Part shown: piece by piece, positions 1-23,400 of the stretch | How positions within the stretch are numbered: position 1 is the stretch's first letter | Layout: each line of letters opens with the position of its first letter | From: Aporrectodea caliginosa | Taxonomy: Eukaryota; Annelida; Clitellata; Crassiclitellata; Lumbricidae | Assembly (NCBI GenBank): GCA_020284085.1 | Contig: JACEVL010000050.1 | Coordinates: forward strand, 346,248-410,247 | Direction of reading: 5' to 3' | DNA: 64,000 nt | The notes under the pieces: model-generated | Seen by the model: only the letters and a program-made list of their open reading frames with translations | The model's database searches: none | What the model was told of the DNA's origin: nothing | Made by a program: the position numbers and the translations under genes

Positions 1-684
1 TTTGACCATTCACCAACATTTCACGGATTTCGCCTTTCTGAGGAGGTGATGGCGTGCCGCCGTACAATTATGCTTGCTGGAGCTTATTCAAGTCTATAGG
101 ATGCCAAAAATGGCTGTTTAGTTGGCTCCGGAATCATAATTGTGATGGTACTCAAATAAAAAAAATTATCATGTTAAGATTTTTTTACACTGTATGCCTA
201 ATAAACTAACAGTATAAAAAAGTTAAAAATTTAAATACGACACAGTGTTCATACATAGGTTTAATAAACGGTTTGAAACACGCAGCAGTAGCACAAATTA
301 ATAGGCTAAGCCTATAGTTGTGAGAAACAGTTGCAATAAATTATTATGAAATCTAAATTTAGTATAGCATGATGTGTTATCGACCGATGTAATGTAGGCA
401 GGTCTGCGATAAAGCTGGTAAAGCAAGTACCAGGTCACATTAATTATCAAAACCAGTTTGGGAAGCATTGCCGTAGCGAACTTTTTAATGCTGAAAATTC
501 ATCCATTCACACTAGTCGTTTGCAAATTAGTTCATTAGTTCTCTGATTGCGTTGCAAGATGATGTACAACAAACGCAAACTCCAATAATGCAAAATAATA
601 TAGCGTCAAATGCAAACTCAGGTAATGAAAATGATATTGCGGCAAATGCAAACTCAGATATTACAAACTATTATAGCGTCAAAC

Positions 685-720
685 GCAAACTCAGATAATG
701 CAAAATGATGTATCGGCAAA
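685..720 (+). repeat. 36-bp direct repeat at LINE left boundary
   Basis: A 36-bp sequence starting GCAAACTCAGATAATG is repeated perfectly at 3518-3553. The two copies bracket the LINE insertion. It is either a long target-site duplication or simply one more unit of the local CAAACTCAG repeat, which also exists in the right palindrome arm. Confidence 0.7.
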
Positions 721-3517
721 TCGCCGCCTGAGAATTATAGTGTTCTATCTGCAGTTTTGTTTACTTTTGAGTTAGACTCAGGGTAATTTGTTCTATCTTC
801 GTGCAAAATGGCGCTTGCTGAAATGGTGCCTTTGGTGGGAAAAGAACAGATGTATTTTATTCTATTTGCATATTCTTACCAACTGATAGGCATTATAATA
901 TTCTGTGTGAACCACAACCAATTATATTCCAGAGATTTAATCACGTGGATATTACAGAACACGCTGTTTCTTGATTATTATACACATGGTCCAGGATTAT
1001 CTTGTTCTATTACGGTCACGTGGTCTGAACGGCAAACTGTGATTCGCACATGCATATAGAACATAATAATAGTAAGCGTGTTCCGCTACAGAAGGATAAT
1101 AAAAAAATATTACATAGATGGACTGTGTCAAGCCGCAGATGAACACTGTCCTAAAACCACTGCGTCGCATTATAAGCACTATTGGGATGGTGAGCTCATG
1201 GATTTGAAGAACAAGTCTATAGCTGCTCATGACCTGTGGAAAGCATGTGGACGACCCAGTCAGGGACCAATACATGATGCCAAAAGGTGTGCGAAAGCTG
1301 AATATAAGCGTGCCATTAGGAACAAGAAATCTAAGGAAGATGCCTATGCTTCTAATGACTTACATGAATATCTTCTGGCAAAGGACACAAATTCTTTCTG
1401 GAAAACTTGGCAAGCCAAATTTAAAGCTAACCATAAACCTCCCTTAGCTGTAGATGGTTGTAGTGAGCCAAGAGACATTTCTATGGCCTTTGCTTCAAAT
1501 TTTAGAACTGCATGCTCGCCTAATAATGCAAAAACCAGTGAGAAACTGAATAAGCGATTTCACAATAGGCTTAGCCAATATTATCCAGCTTCTCAATATA
1601 AAGTGATAACAGTAGAACTAGTTGACCAATGCATTCGTAAAATGAAGCGGGGTAAAGCCCCTGGTCTGGATCGCATTGAGACTGAACATCTAATTCATGC
1701 TCATCCTAGACTGGTTGTTTTGCTCTCACTTTTATTCAACCAAATGCTTGTGCATGGCAGAGTTCCCACCAGTTTTGGTTTAGGCATAATTGTACCCCTG
1801 GAAAAAGGGCCTACCTTAGACAATGGCAATAGTGATAACTACCGTGGCATCACATTAAGTTCAAATCTATCGAAACTCTTTGAAATGTGTGTGCTGGAGC
1901 ATTATGGCAGCTATTTATGCACATCTGATTTGCAGTTTGGGTTCAAAAAGGGATTGGGTTGTTCACATGCAATCCTTGCAGTCGGAACAGTGGTGGACTA
2001 CTTTACAAGTCATGGGTCAACTATCAACTTATGTGCATTAGACATGTCAAAAGTTTTGACAAAGTGAATCACTTTGCTTCGTTCAATAAGCTAATGGACA
2101 GACAGGTTCCTCGTGAAGTTCTGACCACCCTTATAACCTGGTATAGTCTCAGTGCAGCCTTCGTGAGGTGGGACAATATATTTTCAGATATGATAACTCT
2201 AACCTGCGGAGTTAGGCAAGGTGGTGTTCTATCTCCAGTTCTATTTGCTGTTTATGTAAACGACCTAATTGAAAGGCTAAGTCGATCCGGTCATGGATGT
2301 AGAATTGGGGAGACGTACTTAGGATGTGTCATGTATGCAGATGACCTCATTTTAAAGTCAGCATCTCTGTGTGATCTCCAAGCTATGGTTGACATTTGCT
2401 CTGTTGAGCTAGAGGGTATTGACATGAAGTTAAATGTAGCCAAATCTCAAGTGATAAGGATTGGATCACATTTCCGTAATGCGTGCAAGAACATCAATGT
2501 CAACGGAGTAGAAATCAATTATGTGGAGAAGCTGAAATATCTTGGCTGTTTTCTGGTTGCAGCCAAGTCATTTAAACTTAGTTTGCATGAAATGCGTGTG
2601 AAGTTTTATCGGTCATTTAACTCATTGTATAGCAAATGCTACAAATTTACTGAACCTGTTCTGTTGTATTTGGTTAGTGCACACTGTAAACCATTTCTCC
2701 TGTATGGAATGGAGGCCATCAGCCCTACCAACAGTGAGCTGAACTCCTTGGAGTACACGTACAGCTCTGCTATATGTACAATTTTCAAAATATGTCATAG
2801 CAGTGTTGCATCGGTACTGCAATTCATGCATGAAAAAGCTATTAAAGACTGTTGGTTTACCAGAAGACTGCGTTTTATGCACAAATGCCGTTCGCATGAC
2901 AATGAGGTTGTCAGGTTTCTGTGTCTTTTCTCAGACACCATAAGTGGATGAGATTTTCTTGTTTTGCTTTTCATGTTCATTTTTTTGTTGTGCTACCAAT
3001 GTTTTTGGTGAATTAAAGATTGATATAAAGAGACAAAATGGAGAGACTAAGTCGAAAATAATGCACATATAGGGCCTATACAATGATAGCAAGTATCACA
3101 GTTAAAAATGATATTACAAAAATAGCGTTTTCTAGAATTATTATGTAATGTAGGCCTACTTTTAGAACTAATTACAGCAACAGTCATAATTCATTTCGCT
3201 AATAATTATAATGTTCCATGTAATGACGAATCATCATAACATTTAATTGAATAGAGCTATTTCTGTAATATTTTGTTCTATTTGAACAAATTCCGAAAGT
3301 TGCCTTCAAATTATGTTTTCTTATGCAAGAGGCTTCAATCGTCGTGATTGTTTAAAATTGCCGATGTCCACATAAATCTTTTCTAAACATTCTTTCTCTA
3401 TTTTGTTCCACCAAAGAGTTTTCAGTACTAAATTCTAAGTCACTAAACTTTCTTTTTCGATTTTCTCCGTTTCACCAAAAGTGCACATAGAACAGTCTAC
3501 TTCTCATGCAGCGAAAT
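721..3517 (+). mobile_element. Non-LTR retrotransposon (LINE), 5'-truncated insertion
   Basis: This block is absent from the homologous right palindrome arm, so the insertion limits follow from comparing arms. It contains a reverse transcriptase pseudogene (1078-2951) and about 550 bp of AT-rich 3' sequence. No long terminal repeats are visible and no endonuclease domain is recognisable upstream of the reverse transcriptase, so the copy is probably 5'-truncated. The ends lie between 36-bp perfect direct repeats. Confidence 0.8.
1078..2951 (+). pseudogene. LINE reverse transcriptase, frameshifted
   Basis: Two overlapping frames together cover a non-LTR reverse transcriptase. The first frame (1078-2067) carries the basic N-terminal region, the GKAPGLD motif near 1650, the NYRGITLSS motif near 1840 and the QFGFKKGLGCS motif near 1935. 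The second frame resumes at the palm motif with SFDKVNH (near 2055), followed by GVRQGGVLSP (near 2210), the catalytic YADDL (2334-2348) and KYLG (near 2535). The switch occurs inside the first catalytic aspartate motif, at about 2047-2060, so a single-base indel has disrupted the gene there. The clade (CR1, RTE or Jockey-like) is not resolved by eye. It would act in target-primed reverse transcription if intact; it is dead as written. Confidence 0.88.
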
Positions 3518-3600
3518 GCAAACTCAGATAATGCAAAATGATGTATCGGCAAAATGCAAACTCAGATAATGTAAAATGATGTAGCGGCAAAAACAAGCTG
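3518..3600 (+). repeat. CAAACTCAG short tandem repeats (left arm, resumed)
   Basis: Units of about 37 bp beginning GCAAACTCAGATAATGCAAA resume here after the LINE. The same repeat runs at about 570-720 and, reversed, at 14990-15210. Unit sequence varies, with cggcaaat, cgtcaaac and similar junctions. Confidence 0.75.
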
Positions 3601-4179
3601 ACCGATATTGATTACGTCAAAACGGTGCAGAGTGGCTCTTTGCAGTAAACAGAATTATTAATACCCTACGGAGTGCTCTATTAGCACGGCACGTTGTCGT
3701 GACGCATCATTATTTTCTGTCCCTGACCTTTGATATTATTGGTCTGTATACTACGGCAGTGGAATTACCAGTTGAAAACCAAACATCTCAAACTGTTGAC
3801 CTTACTGACACAATGATATATTCAGCGGCGTACACCTACTGTATTTGCATCGATAATTAATTAGTTGCTGTTAAATTACACCTGTATAGTCCATCAACAC
3901 CTGGGATAACTCTCTCCAGGATGATAATAACTTGTGATTCCACTGCGGCAGAATACAGTATGAATTGTAATATTATTATACTGCGTTTGTCGGTTCGAAA
4001 TAATAAAGAATATAATTTTTTATTTTTTTATTATTATTTAATTATATTAATAAGGCAGAACTGAGAGATGCGACGGCGGACAGAAGGAAAGGGAGAGGCT
4101 TGATCATGAAGGTCGCTAGAGTTCTAAGAACTGACAGCACAAGGTAACAAGGTAATAAGGCATGTATGACATTGTATGT

Positions 4180-4315
4180 GAACTATATACATATATATGT
4201 AAGTATGTATGTGTATATGTATTTATGTATGTACATGTATGTATGTACGTATACATGTATGTATGTATGTATTTATGTACATATGTAAGTATGTATGTAT
4301 GTGCGTATGTGTGAC
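4180..4315. repeat. TATG/TGTA-rich microsatellite
   Basis: Imperfect (GTAT)n and (ATGT)n runs on the + strand. The apparent reading frame on the minus strand, rich in HTY and YIHTY, is an artefact of the repeat. Confidence 0.9.
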
Positions 4316-4564
4316 AAAGTACGTCTAAATCGCTGAGAAGCAACGGCGACAGAATTAAAAGTTCCACGCAAAGACCCATGGTAGGTCATACTAGAAGTAA
4401 GGAAGAAGGAAACCTATCAACTGATTCCATCTTTGACCAACTAATTGATCAAAAATGACCAGCACGCAAGAGAAATACGCGGCCATTTTGGCCACGCCAC
4501 TGCCGCAGTCTCCAAGTTTGATGCAGCTACCTACGAGTAACTGCAGAGCATCAGTCTGTTAAAG

Positions 4565-4858
4565 GTGCACGGTAGTTCTAGTGGTTAGTGTGCTGGACTG
4601 TCAATCGAGAGGTCGGGGGGTTCAAATCTATGCCAGGGCAGAAATTTGGTTGGAGATTTCTGCTCCATCTGCGCCTCTAGCCAAATCAGGTATAAATGAG
4701 TACATTGGCCGTACTTTGTCGGAGGGAAGATAAGACGGCGAGGTAGAGGACTGATCATCCGCCCTCATATGCCGAGGTTAAGAAAATGAAGTCGACAACA
4801 CTTCATAACCATGGCTGCCTCTCAGGCTATTATCTCAAGGGACTGAACTTCTTCTTAT
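4565..4858 (+). mobile_element. tRNA-derived SINE (family A), + copy
   Basis: The head resembles a tRNA gene with an internal RNA polymerase III promoter: an A-box-like TAGTTCTAGTGGTTAG and a B-box-like GGTTCAAATC at 4619-4628. It is followed by a body shared with the reverse-strand copy at 42034-42331, including CCAGGGCAGAAATTTGGTT and GCCGCCCTCATATGC-like segments, and a CTT-rich tail near 4847-4858. This is not a functional tRNA: the stem pairing is not preserved and the body runs on for another 200 bp. Confidence 0.85.
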
Positions 4859-4882
4859 ATTGAGCTGCACAATAATAATAGA

Positions 4883-5222
4883 ATAATAATAATAGCGACA
4901 ATTTATGTGGCGCCGTAACACGGCCGTACCACCCCAAGGGCGCCTCGTAAACAGCTAACAAGCAGGGTAAGCCTTAGCGAACAAATAAGAGTTATAACTT
5001 AAATTTAAAGGAATCAACTGAGTCGGCCGATCTGATGGTGGGTCGAAGACTGTTCCAACAGCTGGGACCGGCGGCGCGATCGCCGAAGCGCGTCCTCATC
5101 CTACGTACGCTGGTGTCGCTCTTTTTAAGCGAAGACCAGACGCGGAGGAATGTGTCCCGTACATGCAGTGATTTAAACACAAGCAGACAAAGAGTGAACT
5201 CGATGCGGAACGGAACATGCAG
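4883..5222 (-). mobile_element. CR1-type LINE 3' fragment (left-arm copy)
   Basis: On the minus strand the translation gives pieces of the C-terminal end typical of CR1-like reverse transcriptase ORFs: MFKSLHV, AGPSCWNSL and RSADSVDSFK. These are followed by a GGCGCC..ATAAATTGTCG segment and an ATT-rich tail (4862-4895). It is the inverted counterpart of 13390-13760. Only the last hundred codons or so remain. Confidence 0.8.
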
Positions 5223-5593
5223 CCAATACTGTGAGAGGGGCTTTATAACTGTCTAAATACAATAAAATACAACACAATACAATACAGGACATCGCGAAGT
5301 AACGGCATTATGTACGCTACTGTTGAGTTTCGTTTAGGCAATCAATCTTCCTTTTTAGTATCTTGTGCTGTTATATTATCTGCTCAGCATGAACTGGGTG
5401 TTATCTGCAACCAGGATCGGAATTTTATTGACAATTTTTACAAGCATTTCTGCAACCTGTGCATTTGGCATTGTGTCTGTATTTGGCACTGTTGAGATAC
5501 AATGTGTTTGGCTTGGTTTTCTGCCTTCTGGTTGTCCTTCTTGTCATAGGTTGCATTAAAGAATTCGTCAAGGTCCATATGCGGCATTTATTT

Positions 5594-5765
5594 CATGGGC
5601 GTACTTGGGGTTTTACGGGCTCAAACCCCAGGTCCCCCGCTAAATATATACCCGAAAAAATTATATCCGTAATTAAATGTGTGAAACTTTGAAAAATACC
5701 AAAAAACCTAACTCTGCCACCATGTCCAATGGAAACTCCCGAAATTGCTTCCTGGCTACGTTTCT
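5594..5765 (+). mobile_element. Degenerate hAT-type MITE, left arm
   Basis: It begins CATGGGCGTACTTGGGG and ends near CCTGGCTACGT, like the better preserved element at 38432-38594, whose ends are CATGGGCGTA and TACGCCCATG. The body keeps CCCGAAAA, ACCAAAAAAC and CCAATGGAAAC segments seen in the relative. Target duplications are no longer exact. The copy predates the arm duplication, because it is also present, reversed, at 12797-12968. Confidence 0.6.
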
Positions 5766-5897
5766 GATTTAGTCGTGTCATTAGGAGCACTTGTGGTGCC
5801 TTCTAGGAAACTCTTAGACGTGCTGCTCTCTAGACCAGTTATTGTTAGAATTAAAAAAAACTTTCGTCAAGCTCGTCCTTGTATGAGTGATGACCGC

Positions 5898-8098
5898 CAT
5901 AGGCGCCGACTCCACAGGGGCAACAGGGACTTCGCCCCAGTACTCGCCAAGGTTCTGGGGCGAGAGTATAGTTTCGCCCCAGTACTTTTTGGCCATTGAA
6001 AATTCAAAATGCTTAATAAAACTTATTCATTTTTAGTTAAAGAACAAGGAGCGCCTCTGCGGCCTCCATATTCAGAAAAATGCCATATCAAAAGCCGCTT
6101 ATAAAACGCTGTGTGACTCGGGTTTTTAACCGCAGCCTGCATTAGAAATTTGATATGCCTACATACCAGAGACTCTTTATAGAAAATGGCAGGCCACATG
6201 TGTGATAAATCGTTGATGGACATGTTTCATCTGTCTGAGCGCTGAAACTAGTTATGTTGGGTAGAGTATCATATCGAGGGTGAATCATTCACTGTGCATG
6301 CGGTTTGTGTGCGGATGACTCGATCGGTTGCACTCGGGAACGCTTAGTCTATAGCCTACATCCTGAGAGTAAGACACTTCGCTCCATCGCAGTGAGGGTC
6401 AATTTAAGGTCAATCTTGCATGGCATGTCAATGCTATCTATCTCTCTAACCCCTCCGTCCCTCCATGCTTACATACATTAGGATGAACAGAACAGCAAAA
6501 TTTAGGGAAGCACAGTTGAACGTAGACCTATCGGAAAATTATTGGTATAGCGCGAAAACGGATCGGTAAGCCACTCTCTGAAAGCTTGGTGTCTATAAAT
6601 CTTTACAAATCTTTCACAATTGAATTATTGATGGTCACAGTTTTAAAGGTTAGTAGTTACTAACTATAGACTTACTATTGCAATTGCAATGGATAAGTTT
6701 GTTGTGAAACGTTCGCGCTTAGAAGTACCGCAACAGGAGACGCTGCTGCCGCTGCCGCCGGTGAAACTGTCACAACTCACTGAAGCGGCTGTAGCGGCCT
6801 CTGGTAGGCCTACTAGTGGTACTGCTTACACAGTGCCTGGAAGCGATGGACTTGCCGCCCGTACGAGTACTGGTCTGGTAAGCGACCATTCAATAATAAA
6901 TGGCTCACGACGTATCCTTGGCTAACTTTACCTGTCACTAAATGTACTGCTGAAAAGGCATTTTCTGGTCTTAGGTCTTAATTGGCAAACTTTATGGGTG
7001 TATCTGTAGCCTAACTGCGATAACATGAGATTTGTTAGTGAAAGAAATTTGTTAGTATTAGTTAGTAGTTTCAGAAAACTGAAATGTTATTTTAATTAAT
7101 ACTCATGGTTGTTGTTTGCTCGTCGTTATGATTGAGCAAAGAGGAGGCAATGCATGTTGCATAGTTGGTTCAGTTGAAAGGGCTGGAGGAAAGGGGGACT
7201 CGGGTAGAGGGAAGACACGGTAGAACAGGGTCGTTTTAAGGTCGTCGTAGACGGTAGCCCCCTATACATGTAGGCACTCTTGCTTTCATAGGCCCCAACT
7301 CAACTGCCAGCTCTGAAAGACTGAGATTGATGTTTTTAATGGCGAGCCAGTGGCAATACTTTTCCAGCAAGTGGCGGGACAGGGTGCCGACGGAGCTTGA
7401 GCAAAATATTGGGTAGGTATGGGAGGGAGCTGGGTGAGCCCGTCCATAGAAAAGTTTTGCAAAACTAAATCTTAAACGGTGCGGGTGGTTTTTTACCATA
7501 ACAATCAAATTAGGTTTTAAAATTTTAATTTTGACCTTCATTATCAGTACAAACATCAAATAAAACTCACGAATGCGCTAAAAATGACAAATTTAATCTT
7601 TATTCTCAAACTGCGTAGTCCTTAGGCATTTTCCGAAGGCCAAAAATAACTCATCGGTGGGCCAGAAATTGCCCTTGGGCCGGCTCTTTGACACCCCTGT
7701 AATGCCTATAAGTGATTTTGCTAATGCAAAGAGCTGTAAAGGTCACACAGTCTAGGGCTCTAGGCTGTTGCACAACTCAACTTAACTCTAAGTTAATAGG
7801 CCTATCTTAATGTTAAACGGTTTCAGTACAGTTACACAATATTGATTTAGAAATTGAAATCTGCCTTTTTTCATTTTCGAGTCCAATTCAATCGTTAAGC
7901 TTATTTTTCAATATCTCATTTTCAGACTTTCGTAGCCTCGTAGGCCCTGAGAGGTTCTTAGACCATAGGCCCAGTGCCTACTGTGCCTATAAGGATAAAA
8001 CGGTCCTTGAGCAGGATAGGCGAAGCGATCGTCCGATCACGGAATCATGGGAACGAAATTCTTGCCCCAGTACCTTTTACTAAAAGTCGGCGCCTATG
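5898..8098 (+). mobile_element. hAT transposon derivative with 8-bp TSD
   Basis: The 2201-bp element starts CATAGGCGCCGACT and ends with its exact reverse complement AGTCGGCGCCTATG, giving 14-bp perfect terminal inverted repeats. It is bracketed by the perfect 8-bp duplication ATGACCGC (5890-5897 and 8099-8106). Eight-bp target duplications and CA..TG ends are hallmarks of the hAT superfamily. The right palindrome arm lacks it. The interior holds transposase remnants (6689-6981) and a stretch near 7620-7700 ending GGCTCTTTGACACCCCTG that resembles the end of a further hAT-type repeat. Confidence 0.93.
6689..6981 (+). pseudogene. hAT transposase remnant, internally deleted
   Basis: The frame from 6689 encodes a 78-residue N-terminal piece starting MDKFVVKR, typical in length and basic character of the start of KIAA1586/TTF-type hAT transposases. 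In the next frame, 6898-6981 reads KWLTTYPWL followed directly by LPVTKCTAEKAFSGLRS and a stop. KWLTTYPWL resembles the N-terminal TTF zinc-finger entry; CTAEKAFSGLR matches the C-terminal hAT dimerisation motif. The whole catalytic middle is missing, so this is a non-autonomous derivative. Confidence 0.7.
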
Positions 8099-8584
8099 AT
8101 GACCGCGAAGCTGAAACAGGTCTCACGCAAACACTTAGAGCTCGATCTGCAGCCTATTTCCATCTGCGACTAACGCGCATTCAGAGGCATGGTCGGGCAT
8201 GCGCCAAAAGGAAGAATTACAATGATCCGAATGAAGGGCTTTTGTTCTCTTACGAGGGACAAAAGGCGATACATAAATGTAAATGTTCGCGTTTTTCTAT
8301 GGCCTCGACCCGACTCAATTTTCCATAAATTGATCGGATGCGATCTTTCACCACCGCTCTCCCATTTGAATGGACGCCACGCCATTCAAGCATTTCAAGG
8401 TCCCCGTGTAGGCCTACGGACCGTACTAGCCCGAGATTTAAATATATGATAGACCTATAAGTTTGCATCAGGAGGCGAACCGCGATTCGCATGCTCTGTT
8501 TCACAGAGGCGCATGAGACGCGCAGCCTACGCTCTTATCAATGTAGCTAACTGGACCATACATAGTGATTATAGTACACAAAAT

Positions 8585-8750
8585 AATTATATACATGCAT
8601 GTATACATTCATACGTAATACACACACACGCACACACATACACATACATGTATATATACATACATAGCTGCACGCATACATACGAGCATGCATACATAAA
8701 CATTAAACACACATAAATTCATGCATACGTAAATGCATACATACATTCAC
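8585..8750. repeat. ACATACA microsatellite, left arm
   Basis: An imperfect (CATA)n run with CACACACG interruptions. The corresponding place in the right arm, 12250-12420, carries the complementary TATG-rich run, so the microsatellite was already present before the inverted duplication. Confidence 0.85.
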
Positions 8751-9140
8751 TGAATACTCCTAGCCGTCATCGGGAAGACTCGAAAGCGCACATTTCGTGC
8801 TACAAGTCGAGCTCTTGACCAATCAACAATTGCTTTACACAGTCAATTGCATTTCTAACCTTGGAAATTAAAAAGTGTGTATATCTCTTCTTAAAATGCA
8901 CATTTCTTCGTGTTTATTTTTTGGAATGAATCTTCATTACTCGGTCACTTGAACATTTCAACGCACTTACAGAAAAAATGCAGGTTAGTCAAATAGTAAA
9001 ACCGTAGCCTACATTGTGGATTTCATATTGTGTTCTTCCTCCTTTCTTTTGGTGACTATTCTTATTAGAAGGAACCAAAACGCTCTCAAGGTCAACTATA
9101 GTTTGCAATCTGCACTGTTGATTCGGCTACTAGCGTTTCT

Positions 9141-10484
9141 TTAAAAATGTTTTTAAATGATAGTCATGAAAAGGCTTTCTCTACAAAAATCACCTTTTGA
9201 GCGGCTTCCATTCTCTGTTCTGTACCAACTGAAAAAAGAAATTAGATGGTGAGTTAACTTACCTTTTCTTGTAAAACGCTGACAATTGGCTGCAGGAAAC
9301 TCGCCTTTCTGAAAACAGTGAATCGATCACCGCACCCGAGTCAAGTGGTTTTTTTTTTAAAATAGAGTCGTCAGGCTTGGCTTGCTAACTGCGAGCTTGC
9401 TGCGCGAGTTATAGGTATACACCTATGCTTCTTCGTCACAGGTGTAGCAAGACTACTTAATATGTCATGGCGGAACAGCACCATACCCTCCGAACAGAAC
9501 CCGTCAAATGGAACCAATAGCCGCACATTTCTCATCACCAGAAAGACGTTTATCAGCGCTGGAATATAATTTTTGCAATTCAGGTAGCTGTAGCAGATTC
9601 ATTGGCGCACATTTTGAGGTAAACATCATGGTGGTAGCCCACGCCATTCAAAAGTTATACCCGATATACCCGAGGCACCAGAGGGGTGGATACCACCCCC
9701 TCTAGTTTTTCGACTATAGCTTATTGACTATTCTTCACAGAAGAGAAACAAATATACCATTCTTTAGAGGGAATGTAGGGCTTCATTTGCATACTTACAA
9801 GTTTGTCTTTTGAAAACCGGAAGTGATCAAAATAAATAATAATACGCGTAATCTGTGTGAAAATGGCTGAATGCAGCATTACAACGTACATGTATGCATG
9901 CATACATGTATGCATGGATGCATATTTATACATATATAAACATGTGTAGGTATGTATTTGTGTATCTTGGATACACAGATCAGTTTCAAAACACACATAA
10001 TCGTATATTTGTATATCCAAAAAGTACAAAATGTACGCAATAATATTAAATATCGCTAATTATCGGTTCCTTTGTTAAAAATGATGTAATTTCGAGGTGC
10101 ATTCACATAATGTACAACTAAATATACCATTCTGTACAGAATTGAATCCTGAATCCATTGGTGTATTACAAGAAATGATATGTGAAACCAAACCCGAAAT
10201 CCAGGGGGGTGGTAAATACCCCCCCTTGGTAGCCAACGTCACAAAAAAAGCTTGGTAGCCCGATGGTTAAGTGTTTTGTAAATATTTTCTCCGTAAGGGT
10301 TTTACGTCTCCCCATCCGGAATTGGATTTGAGAAACTTTGGCTGGCGATGGTTTAGATTCAGCAAACGAAATCTCAGTAAGTTCACAGCCGCAAAACACC
10401 CACAGATGCAGAAAACCAAGGCGCCGAACGTTTTCCAAGTACGTTTTTGGGATGGCTTGGCCCCTCAAATTCAGATGTCATGTG
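9141..10484. other. Palindrome spacer, left part; no gene seen
   Basis: This non-coding part of the spacer has no convincing coding frame. Bases 9141-9490 are similar to 39320-39830 in reverse orientation, including the GAAACTCGCCTTTCTGAAAA segment. Short hairpins occur at 9673-9702 (AGAGGGGTGG/CCACCCCCTCT) and near 10204-10227 (GGGGGGT/ACCCCCC). A CATG/TATG-rich stretch lies at 9883-9960. Confidence 0.6.
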
Positions 10485-11073
10485 TCCGTCTTGCTTCTGG
10501 ATACACCCTAACTTTTCGGTCTTGTTTCTGGATCCACCCTAACTTTTCCGTCTTGCTTCTGGATCCACCCTAACTTTTCCGTCTTGCTTCTGGATCCACC
10601 CTAACTTTTCGGTCTTGCTTCTGGATCCACCCTAACTTTTCCGTCTTGCTTCTGGATCCACCCTAACTTTTCCGTCTTGCTTCTGGATCCACCCTAACTT
10701 TTCGGTCTTGCTTCTGGATCCACCCTAACTTTTCCGTCTTGCTTCTGGATCTACCCTAACTTCTCCGTCTTGCTTCTGGATCCACCCTAACTTTTCCGTC
10801 TTGCTTCTGGATCCACCCTAACTTTTCCGTCTTGCTTCTGAATCCACCCTAACTTTTCGGTCTTGCTTCTGGATCCACCCTAACTTTTCGGTCTTGCTTC
10901 TGGATCCACCCTAACTTTTCCGTCTTGCTTCTGGATCCACCCTAACTTTTCGGTCTTGCTTCTGGATCCACCCTAACTTTTCGGTCTTGCTTCTGGATCC
11001 ACCCTAACTTTTCCGTCTTGCTTCTGGATCCACCCTAACTTTTCTGTCTTGCTTCTGGATCCACCCTAACTTT
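10485..11073 (+). repeat. 31-bp minisatellite, about 19 copies
   Basis: The unit is CTTGCTTCTGGATCCACCC plus TAACTTTTCCGT, 31 bp, and is repeated about 19 times with few changes. The main variation is CCGT versus CGGT at the unit end. Each unit carries a BamHI-like GGATCC. It lies in the spacer of the palindrome. Since 31 is not a multiple of three, the array cannot encode a protein repeat in one frame. Confidence 0.95.
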
Positions 11074-11112
11074 GCATACCGTAGATCTAGTAGGCTATAT
11101 CTAGACAGCGCT

Positions 11113-11255
11113 CGTGAATAAGCTGATGCACGCCAATCATATTTACTACTAATAAGCTGATGCCGTGCGCTTTACATTCAGTGACATCCATCCACTTTCG
11201 AGTGGCGCTTTAGAAGTGTGGAGATTACGTTTACGATTACTGTTACGATCTATCG
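11113..11255 (+). mobile_element. LINE/SINE 3'-tail remnant with GATTAC end
   Basis: Contains GCGCTCGTGAATAAGCTGAT, then GTGGCGCTTTAGAAGTGTGG, then a GATTACG-type short repeat. Similar tails are at 27945-28030, 31908-31990, 38296-38395 and 47500-47550. The shared hexanucleotide end suggests 3' ends of one LINE family. Confidence 0.6.
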
Positions 11256-12244
11256 AACAAGTAGTTTTATCCTTAATTGAACGAATTGCTAACCGTATTT
11301 CGGTGTACACTATGAAGTATATAATCACGAGTAGGCCTAAATCATCTTAGTAATAAATTTTTGCGTGCCAGACTGTCTGCAGCAGGTAGAATTCTGTCAC
11401 GTTTACGTCGACGTAGCACGTATAGGCCTACTAAAGGTTTAATTGGGAGCAGTAGGTCAAGTACGCGTCCTCGGGACAACGAATTGGCTACGGGCCGAAG
11501 ACCGAAGGCAGGAACGACTATAGCCGAATCAACAGTGCAGATTGCAAACTATAGTTGACCTTGAGAGCGTTTTGTTCCCTTCTAATAAGAATAGACACCA
11601 AAAGAAAGGAGGAAGAACACAATATGAAATCCACAATGTAGACTACGGTTTAGCTATTTAACTAACCTGAATTTTTTTCTGTAAATGCGTTGAAATGTTC
11701 AAGTGACCGAGTAATAAAGTTTCGTTCCAAAAGATAGACACGAAGAAATGTGCATTTTTAGAAGAGATAAACACACTTTTTAATTTCTAAAGTTAGAAAT
11801 GCAATAATGACTGTGTAAAGCAATAATTGTCGATTGGTAAAGAGCTCGACTTGTAACACGAAATGTGCGCTTTCGAGTCTCCCCGATGACGGGTAGGAGT
11901 ATTCAGTGAATGTATGTATGCATTGGGATGGGGAGAGTCACTCAGCACGGAGCGAGAATACGCATCAACTCTCCCATGTTATATGATTAGGTGGAGAGTC
12001 TACTAGTTAAGCTAGACTAGGCTAAAATTAAGGAGATTAATATAAAATAATACATAATGTTAGAAGAACCATCAAAGGACCTATTTGACAGACACTGTTG
12101 GGTATCCCCGACTAGCGGGACCATCGGTCCTTTCGGGGACACCATTTGCCTCAACTGACAACGCTCTTGGTGTATGAGCATATTATGATAACTTTTTTAT
12201 GATGTTTTGTTTGTTAAACTCTGATGCTCAGTTGCTGCAGTTGA

Positions 12245-12425
12245 TGCAATAAAGTTATTGATTGATTGATTGATTTATGTATGCATGTATTTATGTGTGT
12301 TTATGTGTGCATGTTCGTATGTAGATCTATGCGTGAAGCTATGTATGTATGTATGTATACATTGTACCGTATTTGTACGTATACGTGTGTGCAAGTATTA
12401 CGTATGCATGTATATAATTATTTTG
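12245..12425. repeat. GATT then TATG-rich microsatellite, right arm
   Basis: (GATT)n at about 12259-12275 is followed by imperfect TATG/TGTA repeats. It is the counterpart of 8585-8750 in the left arm. Confidence 0.85.
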
Positions 12426-12796
12426 TGTATACTAATCACTCATAATTATAATATTATGGTCCCGTTAGCTACAATGGTAAGAGCGTAGGTTGCGCGTCTC
12501 ATGCGCCTCTGCCAAACAGAGCATGCGAATCGCGGTTCACCTCCTGATGCAAGCTTATAATATTATTATAATAAATTTTAATATCGGGCTAGTACGGTCC
12601 GTACACGGGGACCATGAATGACGTGACGTCCATTCAAAGGGGAGATCGGTGGTGAAAGATCTGACCCGATCAATTTATTGAAAAATGAGCAGGGTCGAGG
12701 CTATAAAAAACGCGAACATTTACATTTATGTATCGCACGTATAAGAGTTTCCTAGAAGGCACTATTAATAAGTGCTCGTAATTACACGACTAAATC

Positions 12797-12968
12797 AGAG
12801 ACGTAGCCAGGAAGCAATTTGGGGGGTTCCTTTGGACATGGTCGCAGAGTTAGGTTTTTTGTATTTTTAAAGTTTTACACATTTAATTTCGCATATAATT
12901 TTTTCGGGTATATATTTAGCAGGAGACCTGGGGTTTGAACCCGTAAACCCCCTAAATATGCCCGTGAA
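12797..12968 (-). mobile_element. Degenerate hAT-type MITE, right arm
   Basis: Reverse-strand counterpart of 5594-5765. Read on the minus strand it runs from a CACGGGCATATTTAGGGGG-like start to CCTGGCTACGTCTCTG. It shows the same relationship to the intact relative at 38432-38594. Confidence 0.55.
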
Positions 12969-13284
12969 ATAAACGTCGCATACATGGACCTTGAAGAAAT
13001 CTTTAATGTATGACAAGAAGGACAACCAGAAGGCAGAAAACCAAGCCAAATACATTTGATCTCAACAGTGCTACAGACACAATGCCAAATGCACAGGTTG
13101 CAGAAATGTTCGTAAAAAACTGTCAATAAAATTCCGATCCTGGTTGCAGATAACACCCAGTTCATGCTGAGCAGATAATATAACAGCACAAGATACTAAC
13201 AAGGAAGATTGATTAGCTGAACGAAACTCAACAGTAGCGTACATAATGCCGTTACTTCGTGATGTCCTCTATTGTATCGAAGGT

Positions 13285-13358
13285 AGTCGGGAGCGCCTCT
13301 GAGTAGTTCTCTGGAAGGGGCGCCAAATAAATTTATGAATGAATGAATGAATGTATTG
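13285..13358 (+). mobile_element. CR1/SINE-type 3' hairpin tail with GAAT repeat
   Basis: GGGAGCGCCTCTGAGTAG is followed by GGAAGGGGCGCCAAATAAAT and a (GAAT)n tail. The GCGCC..GGCGC arms can pair. The same tail closes the LINE at 30046-30831 and the SINEs at 48882-49153, 51946-52172 and 57949-58176. Confidence 0.75.
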
Positions 13359-13389
13359 TATTGTATTTAGACATTTATAAAGCCCCTCT

Positions 13390-13760
13390 CACAGTATTGG
13401 CTGCATGTTCCGTTCCGCATCGAGTTCAAGCTTTGTCTGCTTATGTTTAAATCACTGCATGTACCGAGACACATTACTCCGCGTCTGGGCTGCGCATAAG
13501 GAGGGCCACACCCGCGTTCGCAGGACGAGGACGAGCTGCGACGATCGCGCTTCTAGGCCGCCGGTCCCAGATGCTGGAACAGTCTTCTAACGCCATTAGA
13601 TCGGCCGACTCAGTAGACTCCTTTAAATCTAAGTTAAAGTCTTATTTGTTCGCCAAGGCTTATCCTGCTTGTTAGCTGTTTACGAGGCGCCATCGGAACG
13701 GTACGGCCGTGTTACGGCGCCATATAAATTGTCGTTATTATTATTATTACATTATTATTG
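13390..13760 (+). mobile_element. CR1-type LINE 3' fragment (right-arm copy)
   Basis: Translated pieces include FRIEFKLCLLMFKSLH, AGPRCWNSL-like and RSADSVDSFKSK-like segments, in different frames with stops. These belong to the C-terminal end of CR1-like LINE reverse transcriptases. The 3' end is ATATAAATTGTCG plus (ATT)n. It is the inverted partner of 4883-5222. Confidence 0.8.
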
Positions 13761-13979
13761 TGCTGGTCAATAGAAGAAGAATTGTAGTCCCTTGAGATAG
13801 AGCCTCGTCCTACATGTATGTGTGGTATCGAGACACCGAACAGGAAGACTTGTAGGCCTAATGATCCGACTAGTTCGGCTATTCTGTATTTCTTGTGAGG
13901 GACAGAATGACATGTAGGTCTATATATATGCCTTTACAGATGCGAGGGAAAGATGGTGCTAGCAATCTAAGCGACTTAT

Positions 13980-14215
13980 GCGCACATATATGCATGTATA
14001 TGAATACGTATATACATGCACATACATACATGCATACATGCATACATACATATATATACTTACATACATGCATACATACATATATGCATGCATACATACA
14101 TAGTTACATACATGCATACATACATACATACATAGTTTGCATACATACATCTCAATACAATGTTATGCATACATACATACATACATAAATGCATATACAC
14201 ATAAATACATGCATA
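13980..14215. repeat. CATA/CATG microsatellite
   Basis: Long imperfect (CATA)n with CATG interruptions. Both strands are open in several frames, purely because of the repeat. It is expanded relative to the left arm. Confidence 0.92.
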
Positions 14216-14267
14216 ACAATGCAGGATAGCTAAACTCGATAGTATGGATTCGTCCATTCACAGGGTT

Positions 14268-14402
14268 TGCTGGTACTAACTAACTCCGCCACTACCCTAC
14301 CTGTGGTAGTGCCAGTCCCAAGCCTGGAGAAAGGAGGAGGGGCGACACTAATCATCTTTGTTATGACACAGTGTCGTTAAACAGCAACCAAGTGGTACTA
14401 AC
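14268..14402 (-). repeat. Unclassified dispersed repeat X, copy 1
   Basis: On the minus strand it reads GTTTAACGACACTGTG, then CCCTCCTCCTTTCTCCAGGC, then TTGGGACTGGCAC and a GGTAGTGGCGGAG end. Two further copies lie at 24918-25018 and 35430-35522. It has no clear tRNA boxes; it could be a MITE or a SINE tail. Confidence 0.65.
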
Positions 14403-14989
14403 TGTCGAGAATCATTTGGTAATGCATGCAATAGAGTCCCCGGATAAACAGCTATAGCAATTCACAGTCAGAGCAGGTAACAGACTATTGTTTGGAGCTA
14501 TTGACCCACGTACGTAAGTAACACATTATCTAGCATGCCATATTAATAAAATAAATAATAATAAATTTACTGACATTCTTCATTATTTCAAACCGACAAA
14601 CGCAGTATGATTACAATTCAGTATGAACGTATGATCACAAGTTATTATTATCACCTGAGTTAGTAATTGCAGGTGTTGATGGGCTGTACAGGTGCAATTT
14701 AACAGCAACTAATTAATTATCGATGCAAATACAGTAGGTGTACGCCGGTTGACGTATATGTCTGCGGAGATGTGTGATTGTGACAGTAACGTCAGCAGGT
14801 GACGTCCAGGTGTTTGGTTTTCAACTGGTAATTCCACTGCCGTAGTATACAGACCAATAATATCAAAGGTCAGGGACAGAAAATAATGATGCGTCACGAC
14901 AACGTGCCGTGCTATAGAGCACTCCGCAGAGTACTAATGCTGTGTCCTGCAAAGAGCCACTCTGCATCGACATGACGTGAACAATACCT

Positions 14990-15210
14990 GTGAGTTTGTA
15001 TTTGCCACCACATCATTTTGCATTATCTGAGTTTGCATTTGCCGATACATCATTTTTGCATTATCTGAGTTTGCGTTTGCAGCTATAATAGTTTGCAATA
15101 TCTGAGTTTGCATTTGCCGCTATATCATTTTCCATTACCTGAGTTTGAATTTGACGCTATATTATTTTGCATTATCGGAGTTTGCATTTGCTGTAGGCCT
15201 ACATCATTTA
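14990..15210 (-). repeat. CAAACTCAG short tandem repeats (right arm)
   Basis: Five to six units of a roughly 37-bp repeat with core TTATCTGAGTTTGCATTTGC. It is the counterpart of 570-720 plus 3518-3600. Confidence 0.8.
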
Positions 15211-15703
15211 GCAACGCAATTAGCGAACTAATGAACTAATTTGCAAACGACTAGTGTAAATGGACGAATTTTCAGCATTATAAAAAGTTCGCTACGACAG
15301 TGCTTCCCAAACTGGTTTTGATAATGTGACGTGGTACTTGCTTTACCAGCTTTATCGCAGAACTGCTTACATTACATAGGCCGATAACACATGCTATACT
15401 AAATTTAGATTTCATAATAATTTATTACAACTGTTTCTCACGACTATAGGCTAAGCCTATTTGTGCTACTGCTGCGTTTCAAACCGTTTATTATGTATGA
15501 ACACTGTGTCGTGTTTTAAATCTTTTAATTTTTACACAGGCCTACAGTGTAAAAAATCATAGCATGACAATTTTTTAATTTGAGGACCATCAAAATTGTG
15601 ATTCCGGAGTTAACTAAACAGCCATTTCTCTGTCATCGGAGACTTCAATTAGTAAGCATAATTGTACAGCGACACGCCATCACCTCTTCCGAAAGGCGAA
15701 ATC

Positions 15704-16190
15704 CCTATGCAGCCATAGGCATAACATTCTATTTTTTAATATATATATATATTCGTTTAATAGTGAATCACTAGGTTGACACACCGCAACCCATTACAGA
15801 AAGTCGTATTACCAGATAATAAGAAGAATGAAAATAATTAATAGTTTTTTAATAATAATTAAAATATCTGTTCCAGCAAAGGGCGACTTGGTCAACGGGG
15901 CAGCATCATACTCTTAAATTAACTCTTTAACGGTGGGCTGCTGATCCTCTGGGTGCTTCTGGACCCTTGAAGATCATCCACCTATTAAGCGCGTCTGAGG
16001 GGTAGCTGATTCTGGTGGCAGCATGTGCGTTTCCGTTGCCCTCGCAGGGGAGGTCAAGGTTACGACAACCTGCCTTCAGCAGAGGTGAAGAAGGCGAAAG
16101 TGCCAGCGTAGAGGCATGATGTATCCCTAGTCACCGCCCTTCGCTGGAAGGGATGTCTGAAGAAACGTAGAATTAGGTGTTATGTCCCTA
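15704..16190. other. Intergenic, no gene recognised
   Basis: AT-rich at first, including (AT)n near 15738-15752, then a G-rich unique-looking stretch at 15930-16150. I see no supported coding frame. The phrase ATCCACCTATT..GCGCGTCTGA occurs here near 15975 and again near 16350, hinting at a small duplicated segment. Confidence 0.5.
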
Positions 16191-16194
16191 TGTC

Positions 16195-16640
16195 TTCTAA
16201 GATATCTGTGGCGAGCGCATTGTCTCCATTAGCCTAGATTACTGTAACTCGATACTTACTGGTATCACAAAGTCAAACTTGCAAAAACTCCAGAAGGTTC
16301 AGAGCTTCTCAGCGAAAGTCATGGAAATAATTACTCGAGATATGAGCATCCACCTATTCAGGTGGATGCGCGTCTGATGGGTGCTCAATCACTGCATTGG
16401 CTTCCCATGAATATATTTCGAAATGGGGCTTAAGGTTGATTATTTATTTAACTGCAGCCAATCGCAGTTTTAAACTCAGTCTTTATTCTTCAGCGTAGGT
16501 CACTATTCAGCAGGGTCATCCCGTCCTTCAAGTTGTCTCAGGAATGCTCTGAACCATATATAAAACTTCTATATCTACAAGCAAATGTTTGAGTAACAGA
16601 TCCATTATTTGCTTGGCAGCTCATCACTAATGCACCTATT
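16195..16640 (+). pseudogene. CR1/Jockey-type LINE reverse transcriptase remnant
   Basis: The + strand reads LDYCNSILTGITKSNLQKLQ at about 16236-16295, followed by KVQSFSAKVME. This is the conserved region downstream of the catalytic palm in CR1-like LINEs (S.LDYCNSLL..L....L..LQ.VQN.AAR.I). Further on, CIGFP near 16395 matches the LHWLP motif. Stops and frame changes follow. Only this piece of the element is recognisable. Confidence 0.75.
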
Positions 16641-16755
16641 TACCTGACGACTCTATGCAGTAGCTCGTCAAAAGCGCCGTGTAAAGATCAACGTGTCATT
16701 CGACCGTAACATGAACACGGCCACTATTAGGTCACGGCATTCAAACGACTCCACA

Positions 16756-17339
<584 letters not shown>

Positions 17340-17347
17340 CCTCCACA

Positions 17348-18424
17348 TGTTTACCGTTTGAGTAAAAACATTAGATTTAGATATAACAGTAATAAGTGTT
17401 TTTTAGATATCTTAGACTCCTTAAAATTGCCTCTATTTATCATTCCTTTGAAGACTTCATATATGTTCACCATTTGAGAAAAGCATTGGACTTGACAAAT
17501 GACCGAAATAATTTGCTGGCACATCGCTGCAAAAAGGCTGGTGTTAGGAAGTGATGGTGATGATGAAGAAGTTGATGATGATATTTCTAGCGAAATGGAT
17601 AATCTAATGATAAATATGCGGGTGAAAGGCGTGCCCAGAGTTTGCCAAGTATACGGACCAGGTGAACCTCACAAGGTCCCCATAGAAAAGGTTAGTCTTC
17701 AACGAGTTTGAAACTTTTCCTTTGAGATTTGTATTGAAAGAGATCAACAATTTTTGAAAGTTACCATAATTATGGCTTAAAACAGACCAACTAGTGAACA
17801 TTTTTAGATCAAGGTGTACGGTTATAGAGAAGGGTTGTTGCCTTTAACCCAATCAATATGGGGAGGTAATATGTGCATTCATTATCATTAGGGTTAGGGT
17901 TAACTCAAAACCCATTGCAATAAAAGCTAGTAGTTGTGGGAGGTATAGGATTCTTATGAGCAAATGCCTCTTAGCAATATAATATTCGGTTAGAACTTAA
18001 AACTTTCACTGACAATAACTGACTAGATGAGGATCATCGTCGTTTACCACAGACTGTCGCCTTTAGGCCTACTTGTAATAGTAATAAGTTCAAAAAGATT
18101 TTAGGTAATTCAAATACGAAATCACAGTTCTGATGCAACACTTACGCCTACATAAAATTATAGGGCGAGGCCATCAAATACGCATTTACATGGTCAAAAA
18201 GGAAAAGCCATCTGGATTAGGTGCGTCTTAAACCGGCGCTTTGAGCAAACATTCCAGCGTCGATAGAGCCCCTTAGTTTAAGTTCTTCACAGTTTATGCT
18301 GCATTCCGAACAGAATATCCTACCTTTAATGTTGATAGGCCTATTGGCTGCAGATCAGAGATCAGAACATAACGTAATCATAACATAGCAACGTAACATA
18401 ATGATAATATAATCATGACCTAAC
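17348..18424. other. Intergenic, no gene established
   Basis: A 70-codon + strand frame (17499-17711) with an acidic GDDEEVDDDIS segment ends near AAG/GTTAGT, a possible splice donor, but I cannot link it to any family or to other exons. A short telomere-like TTAGGGTTAGGGTTAA occurs near 17888. Nothing else is recognised. Confidence 0.4.
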
Positions 18425-18655
18425 CATAAACGCGAGCCTTTGCCTTCATTGGCCCTGCACTATGGAACCAGCTTCCTCCTTTGACTCGTTCCTGTTTATT
18501 AACTGGTGGGCTAAGTGCCTCTTTTCGTTGTCTCAAGACTTCTTTCTTTTCTCTGGGTCTTTCGCACTGGGAGCGCCTCTGATTGGTGTGCACTGCGAGA
18601 GGCGCTATACAAATTGATAGATACAATACAATACAATACAATACAATAACGTAAC
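18425..18655 (+). mobile_element. CR1-type LINE 3' fragment with ATACA tail
   Basis: The + strand translation contains PALWNQLPP and SFRCLKTSFF, the extreme C-terminus of CR1-like ORF2. It is followed by the hairpin tail GGGAGCGCCTCTGATTGG..GAGAGGCGCTATACAAAT and an (ATACA)n end at about 18622-18650. Confidence 0.78.
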
Positions 18656-20689
18656 AACAACCTAACATAGCATAATATAACATAATTAATAATTATAGCG
18701 TACCACCTCTAATGAGTTTCTCTTAAAGTGACGCTTTATATTGCTTTTACAGTTGCAATAACAACATAACATAACCGACAATAGTCAGCAATAAGTACAA
18801 TGCGTGAAACCTGCCCTTTGACTTTTTATAGGAGACTTCCAATGAGGCGTCTCCTCTTTTACAACTTCATTCCAAACCCCCTACAAACGGACAGATAACC
18901 TTGGATGAACAACGATGTACTAAATTATGCCTCAAGAAGTCACTATACTTTAATTTAATGATTTAATCGAACATGTTTAAAAAAATCCGCTGAAAACAAC
19001 CGAACTAAATTGATGAAATTTCTAAATTAATTTGAGACTAGGCTATAAGAACAGTTGCAGAAACAACGACGTTAACAATATGTATGCTGCTTAATTTGTA
19101 TTATTCTAACAAGTTGTTTCACTACTAGCGTGTGTTTTATTAGCTTTTTTCTCTAATCACAAGCCTTATCCTAGATGTTCTTTACATGTCAAAACGGACA
19201 ATGTATAAATCACTTGATTAGCTAAATTGTTAGAAGCGTTTAATCTTCAACGGTGATGCTCTTTACCTTAAAAGACCACATTGGCTGTCGGCCTATAGTT
19301 TTAAAACCATCGAAGGTATTGGCGTGCTCTTTCGAATAAGCAGTGGCGTCTGCAGCTATGCAATTTCAGCAGGTCGCGTCAGGGTCATGGGATTTATTCA
19401 GCAGAAAGAAATTAATGTTTGAGTTTGAGACAGGTTGTCAAACAGGCATGGGAAGCTCACGGTTATGGGACCGTGGCCTCAGGGAGTAGCGCGATTGCTT
19501 GATCGGCGGTATCAATTTATGCAATACATGACAAGGATTGTGCAGCATACAGGCCTAGGCCTACTAGATAAAACGTAAAAAATCGTCTAGATTTAATTAT
19601 TGTACTAGTGATCTTGTGGGACAGATGTTGATGTTTTAAATGTAATGTGCACCGTTATGGACCAAACAGTCTGGCTCTTGTGGTTTTGAAGTCAGATAGA
19701 GCCGGTGAATAAGAGGGTCTCCCTGGTGCGGCATTTTGTGTGAAATTTTAGATCTGATCTTGAGTTGCGCTATATAAATGCTCGATTATGATTACGATTA
19801 CGATTACTTTCTTGACCCATTTCAATGAGCCGGTGTATAAGCAGGTTTCCCTGGTATGGCTGTTGTGTAGCGATGAGTAGTCTCTGAGACTTAAATTTAA
19901 TCACAGTTGAATTCAAAGATTATTTTAGGGTGACCCTTGTTAGCGCGGCTTAGACCCTTTTAGGACTCTCCCTTTGAGTCCAATATCTTCGTTGTAACCA
20001 ATTGCATATGTCAAACCCGTTTTTGTTTGATTGGTTTCAATAAAAACTGTGGCTATGGTTATGGTTACATTACTTTAATCGATTTGCAAATCCGATCGCG
20101 ACTCGACCTGTGTCCACATTCGCAGTAACTGTCGTTGTGTAACCGAGTACTAATTAGCATTAAGTTGCAATGCACATAATTAAGCAACATACTAAAATTA
20201 ACATTTCTTGACAATTTAATAGTAACTGTTCGCTTACAGGGCGCTACGCTTTCTTCGCTAAGCATCGATCTCACACTGCTTAAGCTTAGTACGACCGCAC
20301 CACTCAATTTCGTGAACGATCTTGAACAATGCAGAACATTTATACAATGCGCTTCGATCCGAATTGAGTGTTAACTATGAGAAGGATCAGAAGGACTTAA
20401 CGCTTACGTAGCGTGTAATCATTCTGATGGTTAACTGAACAATCTTTAAGACAGCAGTCCCGTGTCTTTACTTTATAAAAAGTCAAACGATCGAGGTTAT
20501 TCGACTGAGCTCCTACTCTCCGTATTGATGCAGAACACGGTAGTGACGGTAGGCATACTTCAGCATAGCCTACTTGACATTATTGTCTTATTGTGCTGGT
20601 CTGTTCACTATTGTTGCCAATAAATAATAGGACAAACATAATTATTATACATTTTATTTTAACTATAGCATCATGTTTCGTTTTACAGC
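18656..20689. other. Intergenic, no gene seen
   Basis: Mostly unique AT-rich DNA. A LINE-type tail (GCGCTATATAAATGCTCG followed by GATTACGATTACGATTAC) is at about 19765-19806. Several TAGGCCTA palindromes occur, for example doubled near 19550. No coding frame is supported. Confidence 0.5.
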
Positions 20690-21100
20690 TGCTTGCAAAT
20701 GCAGAAAATATTATGATTTAATGTCCTCTATTATTCTCAGGCAGCGATACGCAAATGAAAATAATGATGTCTTTTCATTTCAAAATTACACAAAATATTG
20801 TTAAAATTATTTTCCAGTAAAATAAGGCAGCCTTTTTTTAAACGCACTTGTCTATGTCAATTATACACCAGCGCACCTGAATCCGACATGATGGGGCTTC
20901 GCATTTCTTGCAGCCTTTGTCATCGGCTGCCTTTGAGACGTCAGTAGATCAAGCTCTCTGTTTGTCTGTCTGCATAGGCTTGACAAACACAGGTATCAGC
21001 GTGTCTGTTTGCTTGCGTGTGTAGCTGTGTACCCGTCAGTTTCCCTCGCTTCGGTTTCAACGATGGCATGCGGTCATAAAGGGAACTCCTTTAATTCAGA
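20690..21100 (+). repeat. Segmental duplication block, partner of 47785-48270
   Basis: It shares long stretches with 47785-48270, such as GCTGCTTGCAAATGC, TTACACAAAATA.TGTTAA, AGTAAAATAAGGC and GTGTCTGTTTGCTTGCGTGT. The two blocks lie upstream of methyltransferase-like gene copies 1 and 3, so they are probably the outer part of one duplicated unit. Confidence 0.8.
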
Positions 21101-21133
21101 AGTTTTGTGAATTGCCACTACAATTACTCAAAG

Positions 21134-21673
21134 CAGTGTGATTCTCGTTAATGATAGTTAATAATTTTTATTTTAGTTAACGAAAATAAACTGATTTCGT
21201 TAACGATAACTATAACTATAACTAAAAATATCATTAACTATAACTGTAACTATAACGAAAATAACAATAACGAAAATTCATCTTTATTTTCGTTAAATCA
21301 AAAAAATAAAAAGAGAAGTGCAATATGGACGATTCGACATAAATGAGAACGAAAATGCGATATTTTTATTATGCAATTTGTCAGTTACTTTGGAAACTCG
21401 TGTATTCGCGAAGCTGAATGCACCAATGCTTCAACGGCTTTAAAAGCTCTGAGCAAATTGTGAAACAGCGTGCTAATACGCACAATTTTGCTTTTAGCCT
21501 TAATAATTGTAACTAAGTAGTAACTAAAATTAACTAAAATAAAAATCCATTAACTATAACCATAACTATAACTAAAAAATACTATCTATAACTATAACTA
21601 TAACTAAAATAAAAATCCATTAACTATAACTGTAACTATAACTAAAATAAAATCTGTAAGGAGAATCACACTG
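21134..21673 (+). mobile_element. hAT-type MITE (CAGTGTGATTCTC ends) with perfect TSD
   Basis: The 540-bp element starts CAGTGTGATTCTC and ends GAGAATCACACTG, a 13-bp perfect inverted repeat. The target duplication ACTCAAAG is perfect at 21126-21133 and 21674-21681. Both inner flanks are made of (ACTATA)n/(ACTAAAAT)n-like simple sequence around a unique centre. No coding capacity. Confidence 0.93.
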
Positions 21674-21689
21674 ACTCAAAGAACCTATG

Positions 21690-23020: not shown

Positions 23021-23034
23021 AATATATCACCAGC

Positions 23035-23400
23035 CAGTGTTACTTTTGTGAACGAAACTAAAACGAGAACGAAAAAGATTAGGCAATCGCTGACGAAAAC
23101 GAGAACTAGAAAGAAATTGTTAACTAAAACTGAAACTAACACGCAGTCACGTTCCGAGGCACTTTCGCCAACCAGGACAACGACGAGTAGGGTCATCTCC
23201 AGACAAATTACATTGACAGCTAGTAATATCTAGTCCATGAGGGATCCGGTATACCTTAAAACTAAAATGATTTGATAAATAAAAACTAAATTAAAACTAA
23301 TATGATCATCAGAAATAAAACTAAAACTAAACTGAAATGATTGAAACTGAACTAAATAAAAACTAATATAAAAATGATTTTTTGAACTAAAGTAACACTG
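23035..23400 (+). mobile_element. hAT-type MITE (CAGTGTTACTTT ends) with perfect TSD
   Basis: The 366-bp element starts CAGTGTTACTTTTGTGAAC and ends GTTC..AGTAACACTG in inverted form. It is flanked by the perfect 8-bp duplication TCACCAGC (23027-23034 and 23401-23408). The interior is A-rich with repeated ACTAAAAC units like the elements at 21134 and 56584. The short coding frames it opens are not genes. Confidence 0.93.

Follow-up and report, generated by a model that had tools for sequence, protein, structure and literature searches.

What kind of structure is the large imperfect palindrome at the left end of a 64,000-nucleotide stretch of the genome of the annelid Aporrectodea caliginosa, and where does it end? 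The stretch, called the window here, covers positions 346248-410247 of contig JACEVL010000050.1 (C49), and its right end coincides with the end of the contig. Negative window coordinates denote the C49 flank to the left of it, and genome-wide searches covered the 1.098-Gb assembly. We assign a probability of about 0.87 to the reading that two paralogous methyltransferase gene units, members of a local gene family, stand divergently (head to head) and that the palindrome is the central part of this pair. The left arm (L), the spacer and gene A make up one unit on the minus strand, and the right arm (R) and gene 1 make up a second unit on the plus strand. The probability applies to this identity only; two of the rival explanations discussed below, a fold-back duplication and a simple inversion, share the identity and differ in mechanism. 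Feature coordinates are collected in Table 1.

The first-pass annotation had described a 15.7-kb palindrome with 4.2-kb arms, in which the blocks of the left arm recur inverted and in mirror order. The recurrence was borne out by self-comparison and by shuffled controls. With a long interspersed nuclear element (LINE) and a hAT-like element left out, positions 25-9140 matched 11510-15704 in inverted orientation at about 88-93% ungapped identity in long aligned blocks, with many small indels. Inverted matches at E<1e-10 covered 3275 of the 4195 right-arm bases, and the top inverted match scored 784 bits, compared to a maximum of 30.1 bits in 50 dinucleotide shuffles. Alignment was poor between 4057-4831 and 13799-14536, where the arms have little in common except tetranucleotide repeats. 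By segment, the Kimura two-parameter distance (K2P) between L and R was 0.046-0.143, which corresponds to roughly 5-14%. The size and arm length, on the other hand, turned out to depend on the edge of the window and on sequence that the left arm lacks. The two elements had been named as insertions specific to the left arm, and both were found there only. They had also been subtracted to give arms of equal length; the inserts are sound, but the right arm additionally lacks about 236 bp at the hAT site and carries a 351-bp insert of its own.

Positions 25 and 15703 had been taken as the outer bounds of the structure. This did not hold, as the inverted match resumes at 26546 and runs on to the left of the window. 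Beyond GGCGAAATCC, the right arm shares its continuation with copies on contigs C133 and C3236, and L skips to the equivalent of 26546. Since the right arm continues as C133 and C3236 do while L jumps, 25/15703 is best described as the site of sequence missing from L. The skipped stretch is at least partly ancestral because C3236 contains 15923-16305 and the region upstream of gene 2 has matches to 25220-25615 and 26134-26291. Part of these 10.8 kb may consist of right-arm insertions, as 15735-15922 appears to be by comparison with C3236.

These observations bear on one of the options raised initially, one giant mobile element bounded by terminal inverted repeats of 4.2 kb. Long inverted arms would suit such an element, as would the presence of both arm ends on C3236. 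However, homology extends beyond both edges, no target-site duplication was seen at 25/15704 in a comparison by eye, and arm sequence lies upstream of genes elsewhere. Copies of the arms with conserved outer boundaries had been proposed as a check, but those on C133 and C3236 both run past the right-arm edge, where L jumps. Copies of the boundary between the inner segments E and I (see below) are few (3 full, 2 half and 1 partial), and a Pfam scan of 9 open reading frames from the arms, the hAT-like element and the spacer gave no match. With no ends, no flanking duplication seen and few inner-boundary copies, the giant element was rejected, and we consider it extremely improbable.

As assembled, the locus does look like an inverted segmental duplication, another of the options raised at first. 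Homologous segments lie in opposite orientation at one locus, and they are made up of ordinary genomic DNA (genes and old repeats, with one methyltransferase gene per arm), not of a set of element genes. The gene-bearing inverted match continues to -6901/35980, in agreement with this option. The proteins of gene A and gene 1 are 87% identical, with a synonymous distance of 0.137 and a ratio of nonsynonymous to synonymous distance (Ka/Ks) of 0.46. Counting gene A, four methyltransferase copies were found in the 134 kb of C49 that were read, and the gene 1 protein used as a query gave no further copy in C49:276248-346247 or elsewhere in C133:952500-982499. Among 116 listed relatives of this protein, the 5 with an organism name were all from Capitella teleta, at 36-44% identity. 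Genes 1-3 are three direct methyltransferase paralogues over 28608-51230 with related flanks.

Other copies of the unit were informative about its extent. A third copy (C), which the first-pass annotation did not contain, is older and more diverged than the arms and stops short of the LINE site. Its collinearity with the left arm takes in 9140-9551, a stretch previously assigned to the spacer; the repeated unit therefore exceeds the palindrome arm, and of the two arms it is R that is truncated. A copy of the arm on C133 (972033-977115) leads into a related gene at 977907-978770. With copy C located upstream of gene 2 and the C133 copy running into a related gene, the arms are gene-flanking DNA. 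The E segment showed weak similarity to the region upstream of gene 3 (3 of 200 shuffles were as good, and the comparison was picked from 8), which was not used.

Along the gene, the order of the unit is S, E, I and then the methyltransferase gene. E is conserved, has a splice-like site and is a putative exon. A conserved GTAAGT ... TTTTTTCAG pair surrounds about 34 bases in the E copies (9225-9330 on the minus strand), possibly a very small intron. The spacer is not duplicated between the arms, and parts of it recur in C3236 and in a further copy, D, on the plus strand at window -29135..-22425. A 31-bp tandem repeat occupies 10485-11073 of the spacer (19 copies, 96% match), and short versions of it are found in C3236 and D.

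At the inner junction, the first base of R (11521) corresponds to L 9129 and directly abuts S, which ends at 11520 here but runs on in C3236 and D. D contains S and E, and its end corresponds to L 9128. When the genome was searched with the E-I boundary (all 8 of 8 candidates scored), the full query was recovered in L, C3236 and C133, only query positions 1-433 in D and only 421-811 in R. The remaining matches were C (102-742 and a 49-bp piece) and one 57-bp match on C44. D and R lie on the same strand, 33.9 kb apart, and are complementary within about 2 bp in L coordinates. Because the boundary search gave complementary pieces, D and R are most simply two halves of one unit, and D is most likely the missing S-E half of the gene 1 unit. 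A tentative account, to which we give slightly less than even odds, is that the gene 1 unit broke at E/I and that the break is now occupied by the sister unit as an inverted copy, which measures about 33 kb and contains gene A.

Another possible explanation is that one unit in an array of direct tandem units underwent a simple inversion, with breaks upstream of the S of unit A and at the E/I of unit 1, and with the scaffold piece that holds D reversed at an N. As this would have it, genes 1-3 share the plus strand and gene A alone is reversed, and the N at -21583 lies beside a multi-copy element, where joins are fragile. The inversion predicts D on the minus strand, however, and the assembled D is on the plus strand; we find this explanation rather unlikely. 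The multi-copy element is an 841-bp repeat directly after D that looks like a retroelement and shares 98-99% identity with copies on five other contigs (best 40 of 2380 candidates scored). All 5 of the 5 other copies fetched run into (ATT)n, and the copy at D ends at the single N (-21583, C49:324664) before that tail. A reading of the D and R ends as a TA target duplication was dropped, with the copy cut by the N before its tail and the duplication thus unreadable.

A fold-back inverted duplication was also considered. Here S would break at its outer end, the broken end would fold onto L and copy it, giving R and gene 1, the spacer would be the single-copy loop, and D would be an unrelated half unit. 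The 2,391-bp spacer falls within the 766-70,466 bp given for human cases in PMC3907307, and in the longest I piece the tree places L and R as sisters. Yet the complementarity of D and R within about 2 bp would then be chance, and the inverted microhomology at the junction is weak: random pairs did equally well in 1044 of 20000 cases when S was represented by its C3236 paralogue and in 4467 of 20000 when it was represented by the D paralogue. We hold the fold-back to be about as improbable as the simple inversion.

Trees and distances were compared for the separate segments, and the following results favor the divergent-pair reading. In E, L grouped with D (support 80, K2P 0.072), and in I, L grouped with R (support 92-93, K2P 0.061-0.071), including the longest I piece. 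For two S pieces, the L-D distances were 0.148 and 0.099 versus L-C3236 distances of 0.193 and 0.208.

Several observations weigh against the divergent-pair reading and the insertion of a sister copy into the gene 1 unit. In I, C3236 is as near to L (K2P 0.060-0.061) as R is, so that the L-R grouping comes from the tree and not from distance; two shorter I pieces gave weakly supported trees (33 and 54), and the L-R distance is uneven among segments (0.046-0.143). An insert of about 290 bp is common to L and C133, and R and C3236 lack it. In the gene part, gene A falls together with the C133 gene (support 100, K2P 0.072), with gene 1 farther away (K2P 0.109). The synonymous distances of gene A to the C133 gene (0.132, Ka/Ks 0.16) and to gene 1 are nearly equal, which tempers this grouping. 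In the flank, no collinear right-arm counterpart of -21582..-6902 was found, and the only matches there were out of order (e.g., -15751..-15290 / 21673..21219) or short repeats. Finally, D and the inverted segment are connected through an assembly join, at the single N (-21583) outside the window. The tree conflicts and the common 290-bp insert suggest gene conversion, or another order of duplications or extra ones.

The whole palindrome could in principle be an assembly artefact, arising from a fold-back read or from two haplotypes joined in error, and the one N in the left flank is in keeping with this. The central junction and the window contain no N, though, and each arm has independent inserts. 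L and R extend for kilobases into different gene copies, and no near-identical second copy was found (all 8 of 8 candidates scored for E-I, best 40 of 17789 for the right arm). Substitutions and arm-specific inserts had already been cited against an artefact, an argument that the junction, the K2P of about 5-14% and the independent inserts uphold. We judge an artefact to be very unlikely.

Under the divergent-pair reading, later independent insertions (the LINE, the hAT-like element and others) together with deletions would have produced the unequal arm lengths. The reverse transcriptase region of the LINE is split over two overlapping frames and is thus broken, and the ends of the element (~722-3553) are blurred by the surrounding minisatellite. 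The element at 5898-8098 is presumably a hAT transposon, a label that we take from features of the superfamily, with no Pfam match in the open reading frames tested. The corresponding right-arm junction is not an empty hAT site because about 236 bp around the site are also missing; the empty site is found in copy C at 41811-41820. The 351-bp insert of the right arm belongs to a repeat with at least 30 genome copies at 91-95% identity (best 40 of 17789 candidates scored). A 399-bp match, -14848..-14452 / 39052..38694, was tried as an outer arm and dropped; by its coordinates it lies in extra sequence of C that is absent from D, and it is probably a repeat.

Table 1. Features of the palindrome, its flanks and the related units (window coordinates unless marked C49)
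Feature	Position	Strand	Remarks
Left arm L	1..9129	-	I segment (upstream/intron-like DNA) of gene A unit
E segment	9130..9561	-	Conserved, exon-like; GTAAGT splice-like site in 4/5 aligned copies, GTTAGT in C133
S part of spacer	9562..11520	-	10267-11520 collinear, with gaps, with C3236 and D
Rearrangement junction	11520..11521	.	No N; S side ...GGAACGACTA then TAGCCGAATC... right arm
Right arm R as first described	11521..15704	+	I segment of gene 1 unit, cut at E/I boundary
Left-arm blocks	25-721, 3514-4057, 4824-5823, 8266-8749, 8732-9140		Mirror-order inverted partners 15704-15037, 15078-14536, 13805-12735, 12736-12259, 11924-11510 (self-comparison)
Gap point in L	22..25	.	~10.8 kb of right arm (15705-26545) missing; apparent outer edge, no element end
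Right-arm stretch without collinear L counterpart	15705..26545	+	At least partly ancestral
Outer continuation of right arm, including gene 1	26546..35980	+	Inverted match, with gaps, to -6901..21
Inverted flank matches, part 1	-294..21 / 26854..26546; -1189..-275 / 27949..27089; -2721..-2307 / 28381..27942; -4238..-2718 / 30043..28551
Inverted flank matches, part 2	-4874..-4723 / 34547..34394; -5404..-4888 / 35180..34665; -6758..-6009 / 35902..35175		End near -6901/35980
Gene A	-3638..-2775 (C49:342609-343472)	-	Intact methyltransferase frame, left of window
Gene 1	28608..29471	+	Methyltransf_24 (PF13578), intact frame
Gene 2	44782..45618	+	Paralogue of gene 1
Gene 3	50370..51230	+	Paralogue of gene 1
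Third copy C	39269..42472	+	Right-arm orientation; ~75% identical in best block; upstream of gene 2
LINE, left arm only	722..3553	+	Inside 37-bp minisatellite; RVT_1, E 1e-18
~290-bp repeat	4565..4856	.	Other copies 42052-42338 and C133 (same position as in L)
hAT-like element, left arm only	5898..8098	.	14-bp terminal inverted repeat; 8-bp ATGACCGC duplication at 5890-5897 and 8099-8106
351-bp insert, right arm only	11922..12272	.	High-copy repeat of ~355 bp
Young multi-copy repeat, 841 bp	-22424..-21584 (C49:323823-324663)		Directly after D

Elsewhere in the window, a 966-codon open frame on the minus strand (60342-63242) has Mab-21 nucleotidyltransferase and C-terminal domains and 179 relatives at E<=0.001. 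An Rfam scan of the window at gathering scores gave 0 matches, and a search of the plasmid collection gave no match.

We regard the palindrome as real and, judging from sequence comparison, as an inverted duplication of an ordinary kind inside a gene family; it is larger than first described and has other bounds. Read in this way, it is an instance of gene family growth by rearrangement, and these data show no function for the palindrome as such. A doubtful extension is that gene 1 was cut from its own promoter and first exon, which would be in D, and now lies downstream of the upstream region of gene A, so that the 2.4-kb spacer would be a putative bidirectional promoter for both genes. If this were true, gene 1 would have retained its frame even though its own inverted sister had brought about an exchange of promoters. 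More generally, the locus illustrates how a gene-family rearrangement can surface in an unannotated window as a large palindrome, its visible middle, whose apparent ends can stem from the window edge and from sequence missing in one arm. The complementary half units, different inserts and intact genes at this locus could serve as markers to order the steps of an inverted duplication.

Three known systems were compared. In Drosophila subobscura, Attacin A2 has an inverted duplication at an inversion breakpoint, for which the authors propose template switching and backward copying (PMC7584159). The present locus likewise has a gene duplicated in inverted order, but that case is tied to a known chromosome inversion, and none is known here. 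Human fold-back duplications have spacers of 766-70,466 bp, with a median of 3,428 bp over 21 junctions (PMC3907307), and share with our locus inverted arms that flank a short unduplicated spacer. The human cases listed there are megabase-size patient rearrangements, many with terminal deletions, whereas here the microhomology at the junction is weak and half of the spacer sequence exists a second time (D). In Folsomia candida, 11 collinear blocks are arranged as palindromes, one of them with a synonymous rate of 0.2 between its copies (PMC5490193). These palindromes resemble ours in being gene-bearing inverted duplicated blocks in one scaffold; in contrast to them, one unit here was apparently divided at an exact point inside it, and the transposons differ between the arms.

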